The notes beneath the pieces are model-generated. The model did no database searches. It saw nothing but the letters and a program-made list of their open reading frames with translations, and had not been told where the DNA came from. Positions 772-20,913 of a stretch of 20,913 nucleotides of DNA are shown in pieces (position 1 is the stretch's first letter; each line of letters starts with the position of its first letter). The translations under genes and the position numbers were made by a program. Source of the stretch: a virus; IMG/VR virus record IMGVR_UViG_3300030451_002667, positions 1-20,913 of that record. One strand, given 5' to 3'.

Positions 772-2732
772 TGGCTACAAAAAAAGTAAATATAGATATT
801 GTCGCTAAAGATAAAACTAGACAGGCGATGCAATCTGCAACGCATGGTGTTGATGGTTTAAAAAATTCTGTATTTAATCTTAAAAATGCCTTGATAGGTT
901 TAGGTGCTGGTGTTGCAATTAAATCATTTGTCGATGTTGGAAAACAAATAGAGTCATTACAAGTAAGATTAAAATTTTTATTTGGTACTGCTGAAGAGGG
1001 TGCAAAAGCATTTGATGCTATGGCAAAGTTTGCCTCTAAGGTACCTTTTAGTCTTGAGCAAATACAACAAGGTTCTGGTGTTCTAGCAGTAGTCAGTAAA
1101 GATGCTGATGAACTAGCAGAAATATTAGAACTTACAGGTAATGTAGCTGCTGTCACAGGATTAGATTTTAGAACTACTGCAGAACAAATACAAAGATCAC
1201 TATCAGCTGGTATATCAAGTGCAGATTTATTTAGAGAAAGAGGTGTTAAAGCAATGCTTGGGTTTAGTGCTGGGGCAACTGTTTCAGTAGAACAAACTAG
1301 AGATGCTTTGTTTAAAACTTTTGGAAAAGACGGTCAGTTTGCTGGTGCTACTAAAGATTTAGCAAACACACTTGAGGGTACTCTATCAATGATAGGGGAT
1401 AAATATTTTAATTTTCAAAAAGAGGTTGCAGAAGAATTTTTTGTAGCATTAAAAAAAGAGTTTGGAGCTTTAGATCAAGCACTTGCAGATAATGAGGCTT
1501 TAATAACTGATATAGCTAGAGCAATAGGAAAAGGATTAGCAGATGCGGTCACACTTGCGTCACAGTCAATAGTATTTTTTAAAGAAAATTTTGAAACCAT
1601 AAAAAGATTAGGTATGGCTGCTGTTATTTTTACAGTCACTAGAAGAATGCTTTCATTAGCAATAGCAATTAAAAAAGTTGGTTTAGCATTTTTGACACTT
1701 AACAAAGTAGCTATGCGAAACTTTATAGGTATGTTGGCTGCTGCTGGATTTATTATTGCAGACATGACTGGTAAATTAGATGAATTTTTTGCATTATTTG
1801 AGAAACCGAAAACTATGCAAGAGTTAGGCGATGAACTTGATCTTATAGTAGAACAATTAGGATTATTAGAAGATAACGGAGTCAAGGGATTTCAAAGAAT
1901 ACACGATGAGGCAATTCAATTTAGAAATGATCTTGAAGCATTAAGAATGGGTGTTGAAGAGGGCTCACATGAGTTTCAAATGTTATCAAATATGATTAAC
2001 GAGGTTGAACAAGCACTTCATGATGTACCACTACAAACAATAACTATTGATGTAGATGAACAAACTAAAAAAGTAGGATTGCTTACTCAAGCATATCAAA
2101 AATTCAAAGAGGGATTTATGGATGCTTTGAAAGATCAAAAGTCAGCAATGGAACAAATTAAAGATATTGGTAAAGCTACTTTCGGTGAACTTAAAAAAAC
2201 TTTAACAGATTTTGTTATGACAGGTAAATTAGAGTTTGAAGATTTTGCAAGATTTGTAATTAAAAAATTTATTGAAATGTTAGTTGGTCAAGCAATACAA
2301 GCAGCTTTCCAAAAATCATTAAAATTATTTAAAATGGATGCAATAAAAAAAGCTATGATAAGTGTATTTGAGGGGGCATTAAAAACTTTTGCCTCAATAC
2401 CTTTTCCATTTAACATAGCAGCTGTCGGTGGTGCTATCGCTTTCGGTATGAGCATGGTTAATAAAATTAGAGGATTTGAAAAAGGTGGTAGACCACCTGT
2501 TGGACAACCAAGCATAGTAGGAGAAAGTGGACCAGAATTATTTGTACCCGATCAAGCTGGAACTGTAGTACCAAATAATCAATTAGGTATGGGTAAACAA
2601 GTGACAGTAAACTTTAATATCAATACTGTTGACGCAAGAGGTTTCAATGAATTATTAGTTAATAGCAGAGGTGTAATAGTTAATATGATAAACAATGCTG
2701 TTAATGAAAAAGGTAAGGTAGCAATTATATGA
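771..2732 (+). CDS. Tail tape measure protein
   Basis: A 653-residue protein starting at ATG 771, overlapping the chaperone stop by one base. It has the classical layout: an N-terminal region of amphipathic helices with KDKTRQAMQSATHGVDGLK and hydrophobic Gly/Ala stretches, a long helical middle, a strongly hydrophobic segment near residues 280-335 that could insert into the host membrane during DNA delivery, and a C-terminal region with GGRPPVGQPSIVGESGPE (about residues 570-590), a motif common at the end of lambda H-type tape measures. Using the usual 0.15 nm per residue, tail length would be near 100 nm; that is an estimate. The gene ends in an ATGA overlap with the next tail gene. Confidence 0.95.
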   Translation: MATKKVNIDIVAKDKTRQAMQSATHGVDGLKNSVFNLKNALIGLGAGVAIKSFVDVGKQIESLQVRLKFLFGTAEEGAKAFDAMAKFASKVPFSLEQIQQGSGVLAVVSKDADELAEILELTGNVAAVTGLDFRTTAEQIQRSLSAGISSADLFRERGVKAMLGFSAGATVSVEQTRDALFKTFGKDGQFAGATKDLANTLEGTLSMIGDKYFNFQKEVAEEFFVALKKEFGALDQALADNEALITDIARAIGKGLADAVTLASQSIVFFKENFETIKRLGMAAVIFTVTRRMLSLAIAIKKVGLAFLTLNKVAMRNFIGMLAAAGFIIADMTGKLDEFFALFEKPKTMQELGDELDLIVEQLGLLEDNGVKGFQRIHDEAIQFRNDLEALRMGVEEGSHEFQMLSNMINEVEQALHDVPLQTITIDVDEQTKKVGLLTQAYQKFKEGFMDALKDQKSAMEQIKDIGKATFGELKKTLTDFVMTGKLEFEDFARFVIKKFIEMLVGQAIQAAFQKSLKLFKMDAIKKAMISVFEGALKTFASIPFPFNIAAVGGAIAFGMSMVNKIRGFEKGGRPPVGQPSIVGESGPELFVPDQAGTVVPNNQLGMGKQVTVNFNINTVDARGFNELLVNSRGVIVNMINNAVNEKGKVAII

Positions 2733-3337
2733 GTGGTGCTTTTCCAAGTGAAAATTTTAATGCAATAAATATTAAAAATAATCAGAAAACTTTAGTAAGT
2801 GAAACAGATAGTGGCAAAACATTTAGAAGACAAATACAAGGACAACGATTTAGTTTTACAGTTTCATTTCCTCCTATGAAACGAGAAGATTTTGCCCCAA
2901 TCATGGCTTTTATTATGAAACAAAGGTCAAGGAAAGAAAGTTTTACCATAACCTTGCCAAGCAACTTAGACGCTCTTGGTAGTGAAACTGGAACCTTATT
3001 AGTGAATGGGGCACACTCCTCGGCAGATACGACTATTGATATTGACGGATTTGCTAGTGATGGTGCTGGAAGATTAAAAGCTGGCGATTTTATTAAGTTT
3101 GCCCATGATAAAGTATATATGGTTGTTGCAGATGTTACATCATCAAGTAATGCGGCTACCGTTAGCATTGAACCACCATTAAGAACTGCTTTAACAAATA
3201 ACAGTGCAGTCACATATGATTCTGTGCCTTTCACTGTGCATCTAACAAGTGATGTCCAGGAGTTCGGTATAGGGGAAAATGATAATGACGGTAATCCAAT
3301 ATTCAGATATGAGTTTGATGTTATTGAAAGTTTATAA
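2729..3337 (+). CDS. Distal/minor tail protein following the tape measure
   Basis: A 202-residue protein whose ATG overlaps the tape measure stop (ATGA at 2729-2732). The N-terminal half (LVSETDSGKTFRRQIQGQRF, then a segment ending in KQRSRKESFTITLP) resembles small tail proteins that sit under the tape measure and build the distal tail ring. The middle (about residues 85-145) looks like an inserted beta-domain with GDFIKFAHDKVYMVV, reminiscent of a short carbohydrate-binding or OB-like insertion. The gene order tape measure, this gene, next gene, J-like gene parallels both lambda H-M-L and the DUF2460/DUF2163 order of gene transfer agents. Exact family membership was not tested. Confidence 0.75.
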   Translation: MSGAFPSENFNAINIKNNQKTLVSETDSGKTFRRQIQGQRFSFTVSFPPMKREDFAPIMAFIMKQRSRKESFTITLPSNLDALGSETGTLLVNGAHSSADTTIDIDGFASDGAGRLKAGDFIKFAHDKVYMVVADVTSSSNAATVSIEPPLRTALTNNSAVTYDSVPFTVHLTSDVQEFGIGENDNDGNPIFRYEFDVIESL

Positions 3338-3900
3338 TGCCCAGAGGATTATCAAGTGCAGTTAAAACAGAACTAGCAACAGGCAATATTGATCCTGTTG
3401 TTTTAGTAGAGATAGGTTTTGCAACACCTGTTTATTTAACAAATGCACCTTTTGATATTGCTTCTAGTGTTTCTGGCTCATCAAGAACTTATCTAGCCAA
3501 TGGACACTTACGCAGTATCACAGGTGCTAATGAAACTAATAGACCAACAAAAAACACTTTATCTATAAGTTTATCGGCTGTTGATCAAACATACGTTGCT
3601 GTTGCCCTTAATGAAAACATTATAAATGCTAATGTTTATATTTATAGAGGCTTTCTTGATACAAACAGTGCGATTATTGCCGACCCTTTTTTATTATTTT
3701 ATGGCACGATAGACGAATATAAAATAAGTGATAATACAACTACTGCTAATTTAATTTTAAGTATTACTTCACATTGGGGAAATTTTAGCAAAACTGCTGG
3801 TAGAACTACTACCGATAATTCACAAAAAAGATTTTTTAGTAGTGATAAAGGTATGGAGTTTGCGGCTTTGACTGTTCGTGATATTAAATGGGGTAGATAG
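3337..3900 (+). CDS. Minor tail protein, DUF2163-like position
   Basis: A 187-residue protein with TAATG coupling to the gene before it. The opening residues (MPRGLSSAVKTELATGNIDP, then VVLVEIGF) match the style of tail proteins described as DUF2163-like, where the N-terminus ends in a hydrophobic strand, followed by a beta-rich body containing statements such as VYIYRGFLD and FLLFYGTIDEYKIS. The C-terminus (AGRTTTDNSQKRFFSSDKGM) is typical of the strand-rich end of such proteins. It probably forms part of the baseplate hub between the distal tail ring and the J-like protein. It ends in TAG whose G starts the GTG of the following gene, so translation is likely coupled. Confidence 0.72.
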   Translation: MPRGLSSAVKTELATGNIDPVVLVEIGFATPVYLTNAPFDIASSVSGSSRTYLANGHLRSITGANETNRPTKNTLSISLSAVDQTYVAVALNENIINANVYIYRGFLDTNSAIIADPFLLFYGTIDEYKISDNTTTANLILSITSHWGNFSKTAGRTTTDNSQKRFFSSDKGMEFAALTVRDIKWGR

Positions 3901-4343
3901 TGACAAGCATACATCTTTATCAAGCAGAAAGAAAAGATATAGAAAATATTTATCAATTATTAGTTGAATATAAAAATGTTGATTTAGAAGATGTAAACTT
4001 TCCTGATATTGATAGAAATAAGTTAATTAATTTTATAAACACAATACTACAAAGAGGTAAAATAATTTTATTAAAAGATTTAGATCGTGATGAATTAGTT
4101 GGTTGTTGTATGTTTAACAAAGCCGAATATTTTTTTAGCACAAGTAAAATGATGCAGATACAAATGATTTATATTAAACAAAGATTTAGAAATTATAAAT
4201 TAGTAAAACAATTAATTGAATCAGTAAAAAAAGTGTCAGAAGATTTACCAATAGTTTTATCTATTACTTCTGGTTTAGGTATTGATCCTGTTTTTCAAAT
4301 GTTAGGTTTTGAAAACATGGGTGGTAATTGGAGGTTAATGTAA
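3900..4343 (+). CDS. GNAT-family N-acetyltransferase-like protein in the tail cluster
   Basis: A 147-residue protein starting at GTG 3900, which overlaps the previous stop. The order of elements fits the GNAT fold: an N-terminal strand and helix (IHLYQAERKDIENIYQLLVE), a central beta pair around KIILLKDLDRDELVGCCMF (residues about 54-73), the acetyl-CoA-binding region MIYIKQRFRNYKLVKQLIES where the usual Q/R-x-x-G-x-G/A loop appears as QRFRNYK, and a final LGIDPVFQMLGFENMGG, like the usual GF ending. The glycine of the pyrophosphate loop is not conserved, so activity is uncertain. Substrate is unknown; it could modify a tail protein or a host target. It lies where many tail clusters have the NlpC/P60 peptidase. 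Confidence 0.72.
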   Translation: MTSIHLYQAERKDIENIYQLLVEYKNVDLEDVNFPDIDRNKLINFINTILQRGKIILLKDLDRDELVGCCMFNKAEYFFSTSKMMQIQMIYIKQRFRNYKLVKQLIESVKKVSEDLPIVLSITSGLGIDPVFQMLGFENMGGNWRLM

Positions 4344-7285
4344 TGGGTGGCTGGAATCCTTTTGAGGATATTGTTGATTTTGTTACCGATGTCGTTGATG
4401 CTATTGTTGATATTGTTGAAGATTTTGTTGGTTGGTTATATCCTATGCCCGATATCCCAGATTATGGGGATATGCAACAAGACCTCAATGCAAAAGGTGT
4501 TTTAGTAAATAAATTTAGTGCCAATGCCTCTATACCGATAGTTTATGGAACAAGAAAAGTTGGTGGTAATGTTGTTTTTTTAGAAACATCTGGAACTGAT
4601 AATCAATATTTATATATGGCTTTAATACTCAGCGAGGGCGAAATAAATGATATCTCATCAATATTTGTAAATGATAGCCAAGTCACATTTACAGGCGATA
4701 TTGCTGATAACACACAAATAACAGTAGCAAGTTCTGACAGTAATTTTTATGATACTGAAAATTCTGAAAGTTTAATTACCGTTGAGCCACACTTTGGTTC
4801 TGATTCACAATCTGCCTCAAGTTTATTAAGCACATTAACATCATGGACTAGTAATCATAAATTAAGTGGACTTGCATATCTAGCAATACGTTTTACTTGG
4901 AATGCTGATAAATTTGGTTCTTTACCTGTAGTAAACGCAGTTGTTCAAGGTAAAAAAGTATATAACCCAAACCTTGACGGAACAAAAACAGGTGGCTCTG
5001 GTTCTCATAGAGAGGATACATCATCAACATGGGAATATTCAGATAATCCTGTTTATCAATTACTAGATTATTTGCGCAACGATAGATTTGGAATGGCTAT
5101 ACCAAACAGTTATTTTGATAGCAATTATGCTGATTGGCAAACTGCTGGTGATGTTTGCGATACAAATATAACACCATATTCTGGTGCTAGTGCTATAGAT
5201 TTAATGGATAGTCATACCGTTGTTGATACATCAAAAAAAGCCATAGAAAACGTAAGAGAGTTTGTAAAAGGGTGTCGTGCTTTTTTAAATTTTAGTGGGG
5301 GTAAATATAAAATTCTTGTAGAAAGTTCTGGTTCTGCCTCTATTACACTTACAGAAGATAACATACTCGGTGGTATTACAGTATCAAGTAAAAATAAAAA
5401 TTCACGATACAATAGAGTTATTGTGAACTGGATAAATCCTGATAAAAATTATCAATCAGATACTGCACAATTTCCCCCTGTTGATGAAACAGGATTAGCA
5501 AGTGCAGATCAACACGCAACTATGAAAACTGCTGATGGTGGTTTATTATTAGAGGGAAGATTTGATTTTCCTATGTTTACAAGTCCATATCAAGCACAAG
5601 AAATGGCAGAAATAATTTTACGTAGATCAAGATCAAGTTTAGATGTTACTTTGAAAGCAGATGCCACAGCATTAGAGTTAAGTATTGGAGATATAGTAAA
5701 TATTACCCATGCTACCCCTAGTTTTTCTGCTAAACCTTTTAGAGTGCAAGGTATGTCTATCAATGCTGATCAGAGTGTTGGTTTACAATTATCTGAACAT
5801 CAAGATAGTTATTATACCTTTGGTACTCAACAAGAAGTTGCCACAATACCAGATACAACATTACCTAATCCTTTTACAGTTCAACCTCCAGCGTCGATTA
5901 CATTAACAGACGAATTGATAGAATATTCAGAGGGAACAGTAATTACACGATTAAATATAGCAATAGGTGCATCAACAGATCAATTTGTTCAATATTATGT
6001 TGTAGAAGCAAAACTTTCTACTGAAACAAATTTTAAAATAATTGGTCAAGGAACTGAACTAAATTATGAAATGCTTAATGTGATAGATGATGCAACTTAC
6101 AACGTTAGATGCAGAGCAATAAATTCACTTGGCTCTTCTTCTTCTACAATCACAGAAAATAGAAAAATAGTTGGTGCAACAGAACCGCCAAATGATGTTA
6201 CAAACTTTTCTGTGAATATGCTTGGCAGTTCTCAAATGCAGTTAAATTGGGACGCAAATACTGACCTTGATATTTCTTTTTATGAAATACGTTATCAAAA
6301 CGTCACTTCAAATGCTCAATGGAACAAATCGGTTAATTGGCTTCAAGTTCCTAGAACATCAGGAACAAGTATTACAACAAATGTAAGAGATGGTGCATTT
6401 TGTATCAAAGCTGTAGATAAATTAGGAAACGAATCAAACAATGAAACGATTATCTATTCTAATATAGCGTCAGCAACAAGTAACTTTAAAGATATACAAA
6501 CATTGACAGAAGATATAACTGCTGGAACATTTGACGGAGATACAGCATTGACGGATAGTTCTGGTGTTAATTCTATTGTTTTAGATACTGTAAATGATTT
6601 CGATGATGTTACTGGAAACTTTGATGATGCGTCAGGCGATTTTGATTTAGGAGGTGCAGATGATAATATTGATAATGAAGGATTCTATACACTTGCACAA
6701 ACACTTACATTATCTAGTATTTACGATACTTCTTTTATTAAAAATATTACAATAGATCAAATTGAAGACCCTTACGATTTGTTTGATGATGGTAGAGGAG
6801 CGGCTTTATTTGATGATGCACCTGCACCTTTTGATGGTAATGACCCAACAAATGCAACAGCACAACTGCAAATAGCTAGTTCTACAACATCATTAGATAA
6901 TGCTACAAGTTTTCAACCAATGAATACATCAACAACATTTAAAGGTAGATATTTTAAATTTAGATTACGATTAGCTAATACTAATAATAAAACAAGAGCA
7001 TTTATATCGGGTATTTCAATAGATATAAAAATGCAAAAGAGACAAGAAACAGGTGAAGATGTAGCAAGCGGAACGGGTACAAAATCTATAACATATGGAA
7101 GTTCATTTTTTGCTGTTCCAAGTATAGGTATTGCCGCTCAAAATATGGCTACAGGAGATTTTTTTTCAATATCTAATAAATCTGTTGACGGATTTGATAT
7201 AGTCTTTAAAAACAGTAGTGATACAATAATAAATAGAACTTTTGACTATGTTGCAACAGGACATGGCTTGAAAAGTTCTTCATAA
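4343..7285 (+). CDS. J-like tail hub/tip protein with fibronectin III domains
   Basis: A 980-residue protein. ATG 4343 is chosen over an upstream in-frame TTG (4328) because GGAGG at 4330-4334 sits eight bases ahead and the ATG overlaps the stop of the acetyltransferase gene. After a short N-terminal part with hydrophobic helices (residues 8-33) comes a J-type core with IPIVYGTRKVGGNVVFLETS near residue 64, then hub domains to about residue 500. Two fibronectin type III-like domains follow (about 510-710, including PPNDVTNFSVNMLGSSQMQL and a DKLGNES element). Residues about 750-835 are Asp/Phe-rich, and a beta-rich C-terminal domain ends the chain. The protein closes the tail tube tip and carries the fibres or contacts the receptor. 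Confidence 0.9.
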   Translation: MGGWNPFEDIVDFVTDVVDAIVDIVEDFVGWLYPMPDIPDYGDMQQDLNAKGVLVNKFSANASIPIVYGTRKVGGNVVFLETSGTDNQYLYMALILSEGEINDISSIFVNDSQVTFTGDIADNTQITVASSDSNFYDTENSESLITVEPHFGSDSQSASSLLSTLTSWTSNHKLSGLAYLAIRFTWNADKFGSLPVVNAVVQGKKVYNPNLDGTKTGGSGSHREDTSSTWEYSDNPVYQLLDYLRNDRFGMAIPNSYFDSNYADWQTAGDVCDTNITPYSGASAIDLMDSHTVVDTSKKAIENVREFVKGCRAFLNFSGGKYKILVESSGSASITLTEDNILGGITVSSKNKNSRYNRVIVNWINPDKNYQSDTAQFPPVDETGLASADQHATMKTADGGLLLEGRFDFPMFTSPYQAQEMAEIILRRSRSSLDVTLKADATALELSIGDIVNITHATPSFSAKPFRVQGMSINADQSVGLQLSEHQDSYYTFGTQQEVATIPDTTLPNPFTVQPPASITLTDELIEYSEGTVITRLNIAIGASTDQFVQYYVVEAKLSTETNFKIIGQGTELNYEMLNVIDDATYNVRCRAINSLGSSSSTITENRKIVGATEPPNDVTNFSVNMLGSSQMQLNWDANTDLDISFYEIRYQNVTSNAQWNKSVNWLQVPRTSGTSITTNVRDGAFCIKAVDKLGNESNNETIIYSNIASATSNFKDIQTLTEDITAGTFDGDTALTDSSGVNSIVLDTVNDFDDVTGNFDDASGDFDLGGADDNIDNEGFYTLAQTLTLSSIYDTSFIKNITIDQIEDPYDLFDDGRGAALFDDAPAPFDGNDPTNATAQLQIASSTTSLDNATSFQPMNTSTTFKGRYFKFRLRLANTNNKTRAFISGISIDIKMQKRQETGEDVASGTGTKSITYGSSFFAVPSIGIAAQNMATGDFFSISNKSVDGFDIVFKNSSDTIINRTFDYVATGHGLKSSS

Positions 7286-17938: not shown

Positions 17939-17970
17939 ATTTACCTCCTATTATTATTATTTATTAAGAA
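17939..17970 (-). promoter_or_regulatory. (AAT)n leader with AGGAGG ribosome binding site
   Basis: On the coding (minus) strand the sequence reads a series of AAT triplets followed directly by AGGAGG and then TAAAT before the ATG at 17938. The triplet run overlaps the last codons and stop of the lipoprotein gene. The same design occurs ahead of the genes starting at 19610 and 20310. Confidence 0.65.
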
Positions 17971-18404: not shown

Positions 18405-18725
18405 TCAACTCACTATTTTTAAGTGATCTTTTTTGACAGGTGCAGTCGAACCAAATGCCTTACGTAAGACTTTATCGAGTTCGTCTATACCTATCATCAA
18501 AAGTTTATCCATGAGTTCTTGTTTGCACTCACAGTAAGTAGGTGCCTCAATAATCTCAAGATTATGCCTATTGATTAATTGTTTATCATCAATAGAGCCA
18601 ACCCATTTAGTACCAGACTCACCGTCTAGACCAATGGTTTTTTTAACCTTAATAATATCCACTTTGACAGTTCTGCCAACAAATGGAATGTAGTCAACAT
18701 AATGACCATGCTTTTTAGTCTTCAT
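18405..18725 (-). CDS. Unknown early protein of 106 residues
   Basis: The ATG at 18725 is chosen over an upstream in-frame ATG (18773) because GGAGG lies nine bases ahead of it on the coding strand and it gives the usual 11-base overlap with the DUF2958 gene. The protein starts MKTKKHGHYVDYIPFVGRTV, continues with a beta-rich half (KVDIIKVKKTIGLDG, then SGTKWVGSIDDKQLINRHNL) containing YCECKQE, and ends in helices (MDKLLMIGIDELDKVLRKAF). The first half could be a small barrel domain. I do not recognise a family. Its position after the ArdC-like, metalloprotease and DUF2958 genes makes it a candidate member of the same system. Confidence 0.7.
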   Translation of the reverse strand: MKTKKHGHYVDYIPFVGRTVKVDIIKVKKTIGLDGESGTKWVGSIDDKQLINRHNLEIIEAPTYCECKQELMDKLLMIGIDELDKVLRKAFGSTAPVKKDHLKIVS

Positions 18726-19017
18726 ATTTAAGTGCCTCCAATTTTTTAGGTGTCCAATATTTATCTCTTTCAATGCCTAAACCAAAAGCACCTTTATAAG
18801 ATGATAGTTCATCAATACTGACATAACCTAGTTCTTTTTCAAATATCTCACATAACCCATAAGCAACGTTAGTTTCTGGATCAAGTTCTGATAGATACCA
18901 AGTGCCTTTGCCTGTTGGGTTAAAGAGCTTAACATAAGCAAGGGAAGATTTACTTCCCTCAGCTTTTTTATGGTTTTTGATAAGTTGTTCTCTTATCGCT
19001 TTAGTGAATAATTTCAT
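18715..19017 (-). CDS. DUF2958 family protein
   Basis: A 100-residue protein, essentially the whole length of the DUF2958 domain. Diagnostic segments are LFTKAIREQLIKNHKKAEGS, AYVKLFNPTGKGTWYLSELD, YGLCEIFEKELGYVSIDEL and FGLGIERDKYWTPKKL; the order of xVKLFxPxGxxTWYLxExD, ELGYxSLxEL and GLxIERDxxxxPKxL matches the family as I know it. The biochemical function is unknown. Genes for it are often found beside ArdC-type antirestriction genes on plasmids and integrative elements, and here it follows the metalloprotease gene. The start at 19017 is backed by AGGAGG about seven bases upstream and shares one base with the previous stop. Confidence 0.88.
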   Translation of the reverse strand: MKLFTKAIREQLIKNHKKAEGSKSSLAYVKLFNPTGKGTWYLSELDPETNVAYGLCEIFEKELGYVSIDELSSYKGAFGLGIERDKYWTPKKLEALKYED

Positions 19018-19610
19018 TATTTGCCTCCTTTTAATTCACTTACGTAAGCATCTATCTCTGGCTTACATGCCTGTCTAAATGCTCGGTTAAGATATTTAGA
19101 ATCTGACATTGACCAATCAACATTCATTTCATAAGCCAAATCTTGCATGGCTCTGAAAGTAAATCCTAAATATTTGTTTAATAAAAACATATAAACACCC
19201 ACAAAGTCACGACCATGTTGCGTATCATTATGGCAAAGGAAATGTGCTACTTCATGTATGATTATGTGTTTTGATCTTGCCCACTTTGGCAGTTGCATTT
19301 TTTTGTAATACAATTTTCTACCTTTAGTATCTGACTTAGCAAATCTATGGGCACTGTAAAATCCAGAGTAAGCAAGAGCATTTCTGCCACCATTATTATT
19401 TGAGCATTTGACTCTAGTTACTCTGATTAGTTTATCAGTATAGTTTCTATAAAATTTATTTTTATAGGTATTCCAAATCTTTGATGCAAATTTATTACAC
19501 TCTTTAAGTGACATACATTCATCAAAATTTACGATAGATTTTTTAAGTCCGTGATCTGAAAAAAGTTTTTCTTCCCATTTATAGACTCTACTTCTTTGGC
19601 TGTCTCGCAT
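19017..19610 (-). CDS. Zinc metalloprotease, HExxH type, SprT/ArdC-C-like
   Basis: A 197-residue protein using ATG 19610, which follows GGAGG by five bases; the upstream in-frame ATG (19622) would lie on the ribosome binding site itself. The metal site is HEVAH at residues 119-123 with the catalytic Glu120, followed by His132-Gly in DTQHGRDF, i.e. HExxH-x8-HG, typical of SprT-like and other small zincins. An upstream strand-helix KWARSKHIIIHE leads into the site. The N-terminal 60 residues are basic and helical; KCSNNNGGRNALAYSGFYSA may be a specificity loop. The same operon supplies an ArdC-N domain without a protease and this protease without such a domain, so together they may make a two-chain ArdC-type antirestriction factor. 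Confidence 0.85.
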   Translation of the reverse strand: MRDSQRSRVYKWEEKLFSDHGLKKSIVNFDECMSLKECNKFASKIWNTYKNKFYRNYTDKLIRVTRVKCSNNNGGRNALAYSGFYSAHRFAKSDTKGRKLYYKKMQLPKWARSKHIIIHEVAHFLCHNDTQHGRDFVGVYMFLLNKYLGFTFRAMQDLAYEMNVDWSMSDSKYLNRAFRQACKPEIDAYVSELKGGK

Positions 19611-19782
19611 TGTTGCCTCCATTATTATTATTATTAATTATTCTGCTACTCATAACTTGATTAGCATTATTATCAAAGACGGCACTACTACCGTCTAAGA
19701 AAACTATTTTAAAGTAATGAGTGACCTTACCATTCTCGATAAGGTCAACTCTTCTTGAAGATTTGAAAGGTTTAGGAATCAT
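19588..19782 (-). CDS. 64-residue protein with Asn-rich tail
   Basis: ATG 19782 is preferred over one at 19830 because GGAAG lies six bases upstream on the coding strand and because it gives an 11-base overlap with the ArdC-N-like gene. The N-terminal part (MIPKPFKSSRRVDLIENGKV) and HYFKIVFLDGSSAVFDNNAN suggest a small beta domain. The C-terminus, IINNNNNGGNNARQPKK, is odd: it is produced by translation through the AAT repeat and the GGAGG ribosome binding site of the next gene. The tail is therefore probably a by-product of regulatory DNA rather than a functional domain. No family is recognised. Confidence 0.65.
   Translation of the reverse strand: MIPKPFKSSRRVDLIENGKVTHYFKIVFLDGSSAVFDNNANQVMSSRIINNNNNGGNNARQPKK
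19611..19640 (-). promoter_or_regulatory. (AAT)n leader with GGAGG inside the upstream gene
   Basis: On the minus strand a run of AAT triplets is followed directly by GGAGG, then CAACA and the ATG of the metalloprotease gene. All of it lies inside the coding sequence of the 64-residue protein, in frame so that it reads as Asn residues. It matches the leaders ahead of the genes starting at 17938 and 20310. Confidence 0.65.
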
Positions 19783-20032
19783 TTTTTTCTTCCTTGTTAA
19801 ATTCAATTTGAGATATATGAAAAACAGCAAACCTTTTAAAGTATGGTTTTTTTGGATCGTCGTTGTTAATCATACGAATTAAACTCGCTACTGATTTTGT
19901 ACCTTTAGGCACAACACCACCAATCTCAAATGCTTGTTTGAATGTAATGAACTCGCCCTCATATCCAGACTTTCTTAACAAATTAATATTCTCGCCTGTA
20001 TAAGATTCCTTAGTAACGTAATTGATATACAT
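19772..20032 (-). CDS. Stand-alone ArdC N-terminal (ssDNA-binding) domain
   Basis: An 86-residue protein starting at ATG 20032, with AGGAGG six bases upstream; an ATG at 20059 in the same frame lacks such a site. The sequence carries the ArdC-N signature in order: TGENINLLRKSGY, FITFKQAFEIGGVVPKGTKS (compare the W-x-T-x-x-Q-A-x-x-x-G-G-x-V-x-K-G-x-K pattern of ArdC), and FKRFAVFHISQIE (compare VFNxxQI). Full ArdC proteins have this ssDNA-binding domain fused to a C-terminal HExxH metalloprotease, and protect incoming plasmid DNA from restriction. Here only the N-domain is present, and a separate protease gene lies 162 bases further down the operon. TAATG couples it to the gene before. Confidence 0.82.
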   Translation of the reverse strand: MYINYVTKESYTGENINLLRKSGYEGEFITFKQAFEIGGVVPKGTKSVASLIRMINNDDPKKPYFKRFAVFHISQIEFNKEEKNDS

Positions 20033-20310
20033 TATTCGCCTCCTAAATAAATAATACAACCTAAAGCAGAACCAAGTTTGTTTACAAGTATTCTGTTTGA
20101 ATGATCGGATAATAAATCAATAGCAACTGATTTACAAACATCAGAAATATCCATAATGTTAATCATGCCTGATTTATCAACTTGAGATACTTGTATTTTT
20201 TTTGCATTTAGCAAAATAAATCTAGCATCAACATATGCGTATGAACTAACACCTTTTTGAAAAGTTTTACCTTCAAAAGAAAAGTATTGAGTATTTAGTC
20301 TATGAGTCAT
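20032..20310 (-). CDS. First gene of the leftward block, unknown
   Basis: A 92-residue protein starting at ATG 20310, backed by AAGGAGGG five to six bases upstream; an ATG at 20343 in the same frame only reads the AAT repeat as Asn residues and has no ribosome binding site. The chain is beta-rich at first (YFSFEGKTFQKGVSSYAYVD, then RFILLNAKKIQVSQVDKSGM) and ends with a helix and strand (CKSVAIDLLSDHSNRILVNK, then GCIIYLGGE). No family is recognised. As the first gene after the divergent promoter region it is likely expressed early and strongly, and its place before the ArdC-N-like gene hints at host takeover or antidefence. Confidence 0.7.
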   Translation of the reverse strand: MTHRLNTQYFSFEGKTFQKGVSSYAYVDARFILLNAKKIQVSQVDKSGMINIMDISDVCKSVAIDLLSDHSNRILVNKLGSALGCIIYLGGE

Positions 20311-20343
20311 TTGACCCTCCTTATTATTATTATTATTAATCAT
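20311..20343 (-). promoter_or_regulatory. (AAT)n leader with AAGGAGGG ribosome binding site
   Basis: On the minus strand TTAATAATAATAATAATAA is followed by GGAGGG and TCAA before the ATG at 20310. It is the clearest of three nearly identical leaders in this block. The AU-rich, unstructured run just upstream of a strong Shine-Dalgarno resembles A/U-rich translation enhancers bound by ribosomal protein S1. Confidence 0.7.
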
Positions 20344-20511: not shown

Positions 20512-20541
20512 TGGGGGTAAGTTAGTTTATCCTTGCCCCCA
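20512..20541. repeat. Inverted repeat TGGGGGTAAG / CTTGCCCCCA ending at a start codon
   Basis: Ten-base arms (20512-20521 and 20532-20541), with nine Watson-Crick pairs and one T.G pair, around a ten-base AT-rich spacer. The last base is the A of the VRR-NUC start codon. No Shine-Dalgarno sequence lies between, so the structure would mask the start of the message or act as an operator at the DNA level. A TTGACA box lies nine bases upstream of the left arm. Confidence 0.6.
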
Positions 20542-20913
20542 TGACCAAAGAGATTGATATTCAAATAGCATGTAATTTTTTGTTAAATGAATTATCAGAG
20601 GTTTATATTTTTAGACACTATCATATAGCCAATGAAGGAAAGCGATCAGTTCAATATCAAGTAAAATTAAAAAAAATGGGTTTCCGTTCTGGTGCACCAG
20701 ATTTAGTAATTGAGTACCCAGAGGGCAAACTTTTATATGTAGAATTAAAAAATGAAAAAGGGCAATTATCTCAATCTCAAAAATTATGGAAGATACAATC
20801 TAGTGCTTTAAACACCCCACATTTTATTATAAAAGGTAATATCAAACAATGTTTAGAACAATTAGTAGATATTATTGATAAATATGTCCCTCGTCGTACA
20901 AGTCAATCAAAAT
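20541..20913 (+). CDS. VRR-NUC domain nuclease, cut by the window end
   Basis: The first 124 codons of a gene starting at ATG 20541, the only in-frame start after a TAG at 20523-20525. The visible part contains the VRR-NUC fold: IFRHYHIANEGKRS with Glu32, then MGFRSGAPDLVI (Gly51, Asp54), YVELKNEKGQLS with the E-x-K pair Glu68/Lys70, and SQSQKLWK with Gln80. Enzymes of this type are small PD-(D/E)XK-like nucleases found in phages, in FAN1, and beside helicases; in phages they act in replication and repair, often as Holliday-junction or flap nucleases. It starts the rightward block beyond the divergent region. The C-terminal end is outside the window, but the domain looks nearly complete. Confidence 0.9.
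   Translation, partial: MTKEIDIQIACNFLLNELSEVYIFRHYHIANEGKRSVQYQVKLKKMGFRSGAPDLVIEYPEGKLLYVELKNEKGQLSQSQKLWKIQSSALNTPHFIIKGNIKQCLEQLVDIIDKYVPRRTSQSK

Follow-up and report, generated by a model that had tools for sequence, protein, structure and literature searches.

The closest described relative of the small phage protein analysed here is ArdC of plasmid R388 (6i89 and 6sna; PF08401 plus PF18818), which binds ssDNA through its ArdC-N domain and still overcomes restriction as the protease-dead mutant E229A, so that its protease is dispensable (PMC7213743). ArdC-N domains have been found mostly in multidomain proteins of conjugative elements and only rarely in phage-type polyvalent proteins (PMC5512222). 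The 86-aa protein shares with R388 ArdC the sequence and fold of ArdC-N, including the VFxxxQ "squiggle" (here VFHISQ), but lacks both the C-terminal metalloprotease domain (MPTase) and the alpha1-alpha2 region, and is phage-borne instead of being carried on a conjugative plasmid. Its small size also recalls BHD2 of Rad4/XPC, a minimal nested-hairpin DNA-binding fold, although Rad4/XPC, which serves DNA repair in eukaryotes, has three domains in tandem and identity is 10%. Two neighbouring genes have described relatives as well. A 197-aa zincin has in common with the TIGR04338 (HEXXH_Rv0185) metallohydrolases the HExxH...HG motif and the N-terminal RDxQRxxVYxWE stretch, and forms a divergent phage branch, with proteins of a Hydrogenophaga plasmid and of Caulobacter phage CcrBL9 likewise below the family cut-off; the literature on TIGR04338 yielded a single topic, the linear plasmids of Mycobacterium avium. 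A 100-aa protein matches DUF2958 (PF11171), mentioned only in passing in the literature, over the full domain; it is phage-borne here, whereas plasmids are the commoner carriers (14 phage records contain a relative, compared with 193 plasmid records, of which 128 are conjugative).

The operon and its surroundings

The window, by which we mean the whole stretch of DNA analysed, is an IMG/VR virus record of 20,913 bases that carries no completeness estimate. Its long tail protein shares 54% identity with the counterpart in Pelagibacter phage HTVC026P, and we therefore regard the window as part of a pelagiphage-like marine phage. Upstream of this large tail protein lies a 147-aa ORF (3900–4343, plus strand) which resembles, by position only, a gene annotated as "toxin-activating lysine-acyltransferase" in HTVC026P and HTVC111P. 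The operon begins beside a divergent VRR-NUC/Holliday-resolvase-like nuclease gene (20541–20912, plus strand; among PHROGs families it matches endonucleases and Holliday junction resolvases), which marks the operon boundary across the phage family, this flank being conserved in relatives. Leftward from it, all on the minus strand, come a fast evolving 92-aa gene of unknown function (20032–20310), replaced in one relative (L002), the 86-aa ArdC-N gene (19772–20032), a basic 64-aa protein kept in most window-type operons (19588–19782), the zincin (19017–19610), DUF2958 (18715–19017), a 106-aa protein of unknown function (18405–18725) and a 148-aa gene, followed by a 140-aa gene, an HNH gene, more small genes and a 262-aa exonuclease-like gene.

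Neighbouring stops and starts overlap along the operon; the 3' end of the 64-aa gene, for instance, crosses an AAT leader into the start of the zincin gene (overlap 19588–19610). The four ORFs from ArdC-N to DUF2958 lie where a preliminary description of this DNA had placed them and are as tightly linked as it stated, while its designation of the operon as "early" found no support, promoter-like sites being at chance level (17 vs 18.1 ± 3.6). Where it could be calculated against relatives, dN/dS was 0.09–0.30, pointing to purifying selection on the operon genes. The DNA of the operon region gave no match to named phages, and in the four cultured pelagiphages with the most similar tail protein the ArdC-N, zincin and DUF2958 genes are all missing, the 148-aa gene alone having a relative there. 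PADLOC returned a single weak, chance-like match, to the 64-aa protein.

The ArdC-N protein, the zincin and DUF2958

Both profile and predicted structure identify the 86-aa protein as an ArdC-N domain, as the signature recognised in the preliminary description had suggested. It matches PF08401 with 26.6 bits (E 7.6e-6; gathering score 22.6), a profile of 20 ArdC-N members matches the ArdC of the crystal structure (E 6.5e-6), and profile-profile comparison with full ArdC gives a probability of 96.5%. Its AlphaFold2 model (pLDDT 87.9) retrieved from the PDB with Foldseek only ArdC at significant values (6i89 and 6sna, prob 1.00, E 2.8e-5, TMq 0.69–0.73), the next match, to Rad4 (4yir, prob 0.72, E 1.0, TMq 0.43), being plausible but non-significant. 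It is not a complete ArdC, having neither the C-terminal MPTase (PF18818) nor an entire N-terminal domain with helices alpha1-alpha2: the PF08401 match starts at profile position 29–36 in stand-alone members, and at about 34–36 in the window protein. Such stand-alone ArdC-N genes were found in 52 viral contigs, the longest frame being at most 126 aa and none of the 52 fused to an MPTase. The 20 phage members aligned are all basic (pI 8.9–9.8), and the net charge of the window protein is small, +1.6. A search of 84,980 genomes of bacteria and archaea with the ArdC-N and zincin alignments, its reach limited by short search patterns, detected no relatives of either. On the evidence of the profile and fold matches and of the model, the 86-aa protein belongs to a family of minimal, protease-free (Rad4 BHD-like) ArdC-N domains found in phages.

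The zincin motif reported earlier proved invariant: residues H119, E120, H123, H132 and G133 are conserved down to about 28% identity, with HG eight residues beyond HExxH, and the RDxQRxxVYxWE stretch is kept among distant relatives too. The protein is strongly basic (net charge +18). Its best family is TIGR04338 (Rv0185-like), aligned over most of the profile (positions 1–145 of 161, E 3.7e-9) at 36.6 bits, below the curated cut-off of 90, and the match to SprT-like PF10263 (13.9 bits, E 0.049) falls short of the gathering score of 25.6. MPTase-PolyVal (PF18818) was found neither in the zincin nor in any searched record of the window's phage family, and is absent from 23 of the 24 viral records searched. 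Against full ArdC the zincin reaches an hhalign probability of only 19%, and it has HG in place of the EELVAE glutamate helix of the ArdC MPTase. Because a structural model of the zincin, built on four sequences, was of low quality (pLDDT 54) and retrieved no similar folds, this classification rests on profiles and motifs.

The exception among the 24 records, an unrelated phage fragment (L094), encodes a full-length ArdC (2310–3236; ArdcN E 5e-21, MPTase E 6e-36, profile match from position 2) and, 0.9 kb downstream on the same strand, a relative of the zincin that is TIGR04338-like (4104–4871), and a 38-kb record (L116) has a zincin relative with neither ArdC domain detectable. Together with the profile of another family and the lack of PF18818, these two cases argue for regarding the zincin as a protein of its own kind, by its sequence an accessory protein of TIGR04338/SprT-like type and not the protease half of ArdC. 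A further relative (E 1e-12), annotated as hypothetical, adjoins a thermonuclease gene on a Hydrogenophaga conjugative plasmid (L117:11953–12645).

The 100-aa protein is assigned to DUF2958 by its profile match, in agreement with the earlier assignment (PF11171, E 3.8e-20, 72.7 bits; gathering score 21). The accompanying remark that ArdC is often encoded near DUF2958 held in one of six plasmid neighbourhoods inspected and failed in the other five.

Gene-by-gene exchange and the (AAT)n-GGAGG leaders

The operon consists of exchangeable accessory genes, and the first gene, ArdC-N, the peptidase slot and DUF2958 are all swapped between phages. The swaps in L004, L005 and L006 place these genes in a variable accessory region. 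ArdC-N and DUF2958 are kept in L005, where the zincin is absent, and in L004, where its slot is filled by a Cys/His protein of 178–183 aa (L004:1895–2428; papain-like pattern by eye; PHROG 3754, of unknown function). The same protein accompanies DUF2958 in L006, with ArdC-N replaced by a short ORF, SH3-like by eye. Directly behind the 64-aa gene, where the window has its zincin, L020 (4560–5939) and L030 (3799–5259) carry large HExxH proteins (HEFGHW, ca. 470–505 aa), the N-terminus of the L030 protein being weakly GHKL-like (HATPase_c_3, E 0.016). Two contigs, L048 and L055, are 94–95% identical over about 11 kb except exactly at the ArdC-N gene, replaced one for one (L048:2809–3114, L055:4752–5042). 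The ArdC-N proteins of the window and of the distant L095 share 74% identity, although the exonuclease and 140-aa genes of the two are only 44–45% identical; for ArdC-N of the nearer, zincin-bearing L011 the figure is 41%, despite much closer exonuclease and 140-aa genes (66–75%) and zincin. ArdC-N has therefore moved independently.

The joint travel of ArdC-N and zincin that had been anticipated is contradicted by relatives that separate them (L004, L005): among the 52 contigs with stand-alone ArdC-N, a zincin is nearby in four and DUF2958 in nine, counted over the stretch retrieved from each contig, with truncation in some. Zincin-bearing operons, from lineages not selected on ArdC-N, have ArdC-N in 4/4 cases (Fisher p 0.007, uncorrected for shared ancestry) and DUF2958 also in 4/4 (p 0.0015, from few related lineages and likewise uncorrected).

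Three (AAT)n-GGAGG leaders (AAT-repeat/Shine-Dalgarno) were found on the minus strand, before the first gene (20316–20337), the exchangeable zincin slot (19616–19635) and the 140-aa gene (17944–17962), against 0.02 expected in the base-shuffled window, an undemanding null for translation leaders rich in A and T. These leaders are conserved in the phage family and coincide with the boundaries of accessory-gene swaps. The one at the zincin slot is kept in front of the Cys/His protein (L004, L006), of DUF2958 (L005) and of the GHKL/HExxH protein (L030), and the L048/L055 breakpoint is at or beside such a leader. Recombination between phages may use them, individual operon genes being exchanged, as we picture it, with the leaders as boundaries.

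Function of the minimal ArdC-N protein

We favour, with a probability of about 0.55, the reading that the 86-aa protein is a minimal, protease-independent, DNA-binding antirestriction protein in a swappable operon beside the VRR-NUC gene, the zincin being separate. Its targets would be single-stranded stretches or junctions in the phage genome during infection or replication; bound there, the protein could guard the DNA against restriction by the host or attack by other nucleases with no protease required, much as plasmid ArdC protects DNA with its protease inactivated. Several points count against such a role as DNA protector, namely the missing helices alpha1-alpha2, the net charge of only +1.6 and the flanking nucleases, which suit replication or recombination equally well. 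Furthermore, phages inject dsDNA, and the protection given by ArdC is known for conjugation.

A serious rival, if an improbable one, is that ArdC-N is no antidefence protein but a small ssDNA- or junction-binding helper of the adjacent nucleases in replication or recombination. The neighbourhood of VRR-NUC, PD-(D/E)XK-like exonuclease and HNH genes and the Rad4-like fold would suit this role, but phages can do without the ArdC-N gene and exchange it one for one, keeping the nuclease genes, a pattern typical of accessory and not of core replication genes. We think it similarly improbable that, within the window's sub-lineage, ArdC-N and zincin are partners of different origin, ArdC-N marking ss/ds junctions, the zincin being aimed at DNA-bound host proteins and DUF2958 acting as third partner. 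The constant company of the zincin with DUF2958 and ArdC-N (both 4/4), its charge of +18 and its weak SprT-like similarity speak for a partnership; the association comes from few, related lineages, however, and L005 and L004 retain ArdC-N and DUF2958 without the zincin. Still somewhat more doubtful is the further step in which the basic TIGR04338/SprT-like protease, the minimal ArdC-N and DUF2958 would work in trans as a DNA-guided proteolytic antidefence of this sub-lineage, possibly removing restriction or repair proteins from phage DNA, a system that would have been assembled by module shuffling and not by splitting of ArdC.

The original proposal of a dispersed ArdC system stands as far as the linkage of ArdC-N, zincin and DUF2958 is concerned, and fails for the zincin as ArdC's protease half. 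We accordingly give very little credence to the reading in which a single ancestral ArdC was split into the 86-aa and 197-aa chains and these work as a complex. Their genes are close together, all four zincin-bearing operons have ArdC-N, and both genes persist in three lineages with zincins about 63% identical. On the other hand, the zincin belongs to another family and the MPTase is absent, 48 of the 52 contigs (some truncated) have ArdC-N without it, zincin relatives occur beside a full ArdC (L094) or without detectable ArdC (L116), and the two genes have discordant histories.

What emerges is a conserved phage family consisting of the ArdC-N domain alone, of about 90 aa, which makes the question of the domain's own function directly testable. 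A protease-free family fits the report that the ArdC protease is dispensable for antirestriction, and the gene-for-gene swaps reveal a route by which accessory genes are exchanged among these marine phages.
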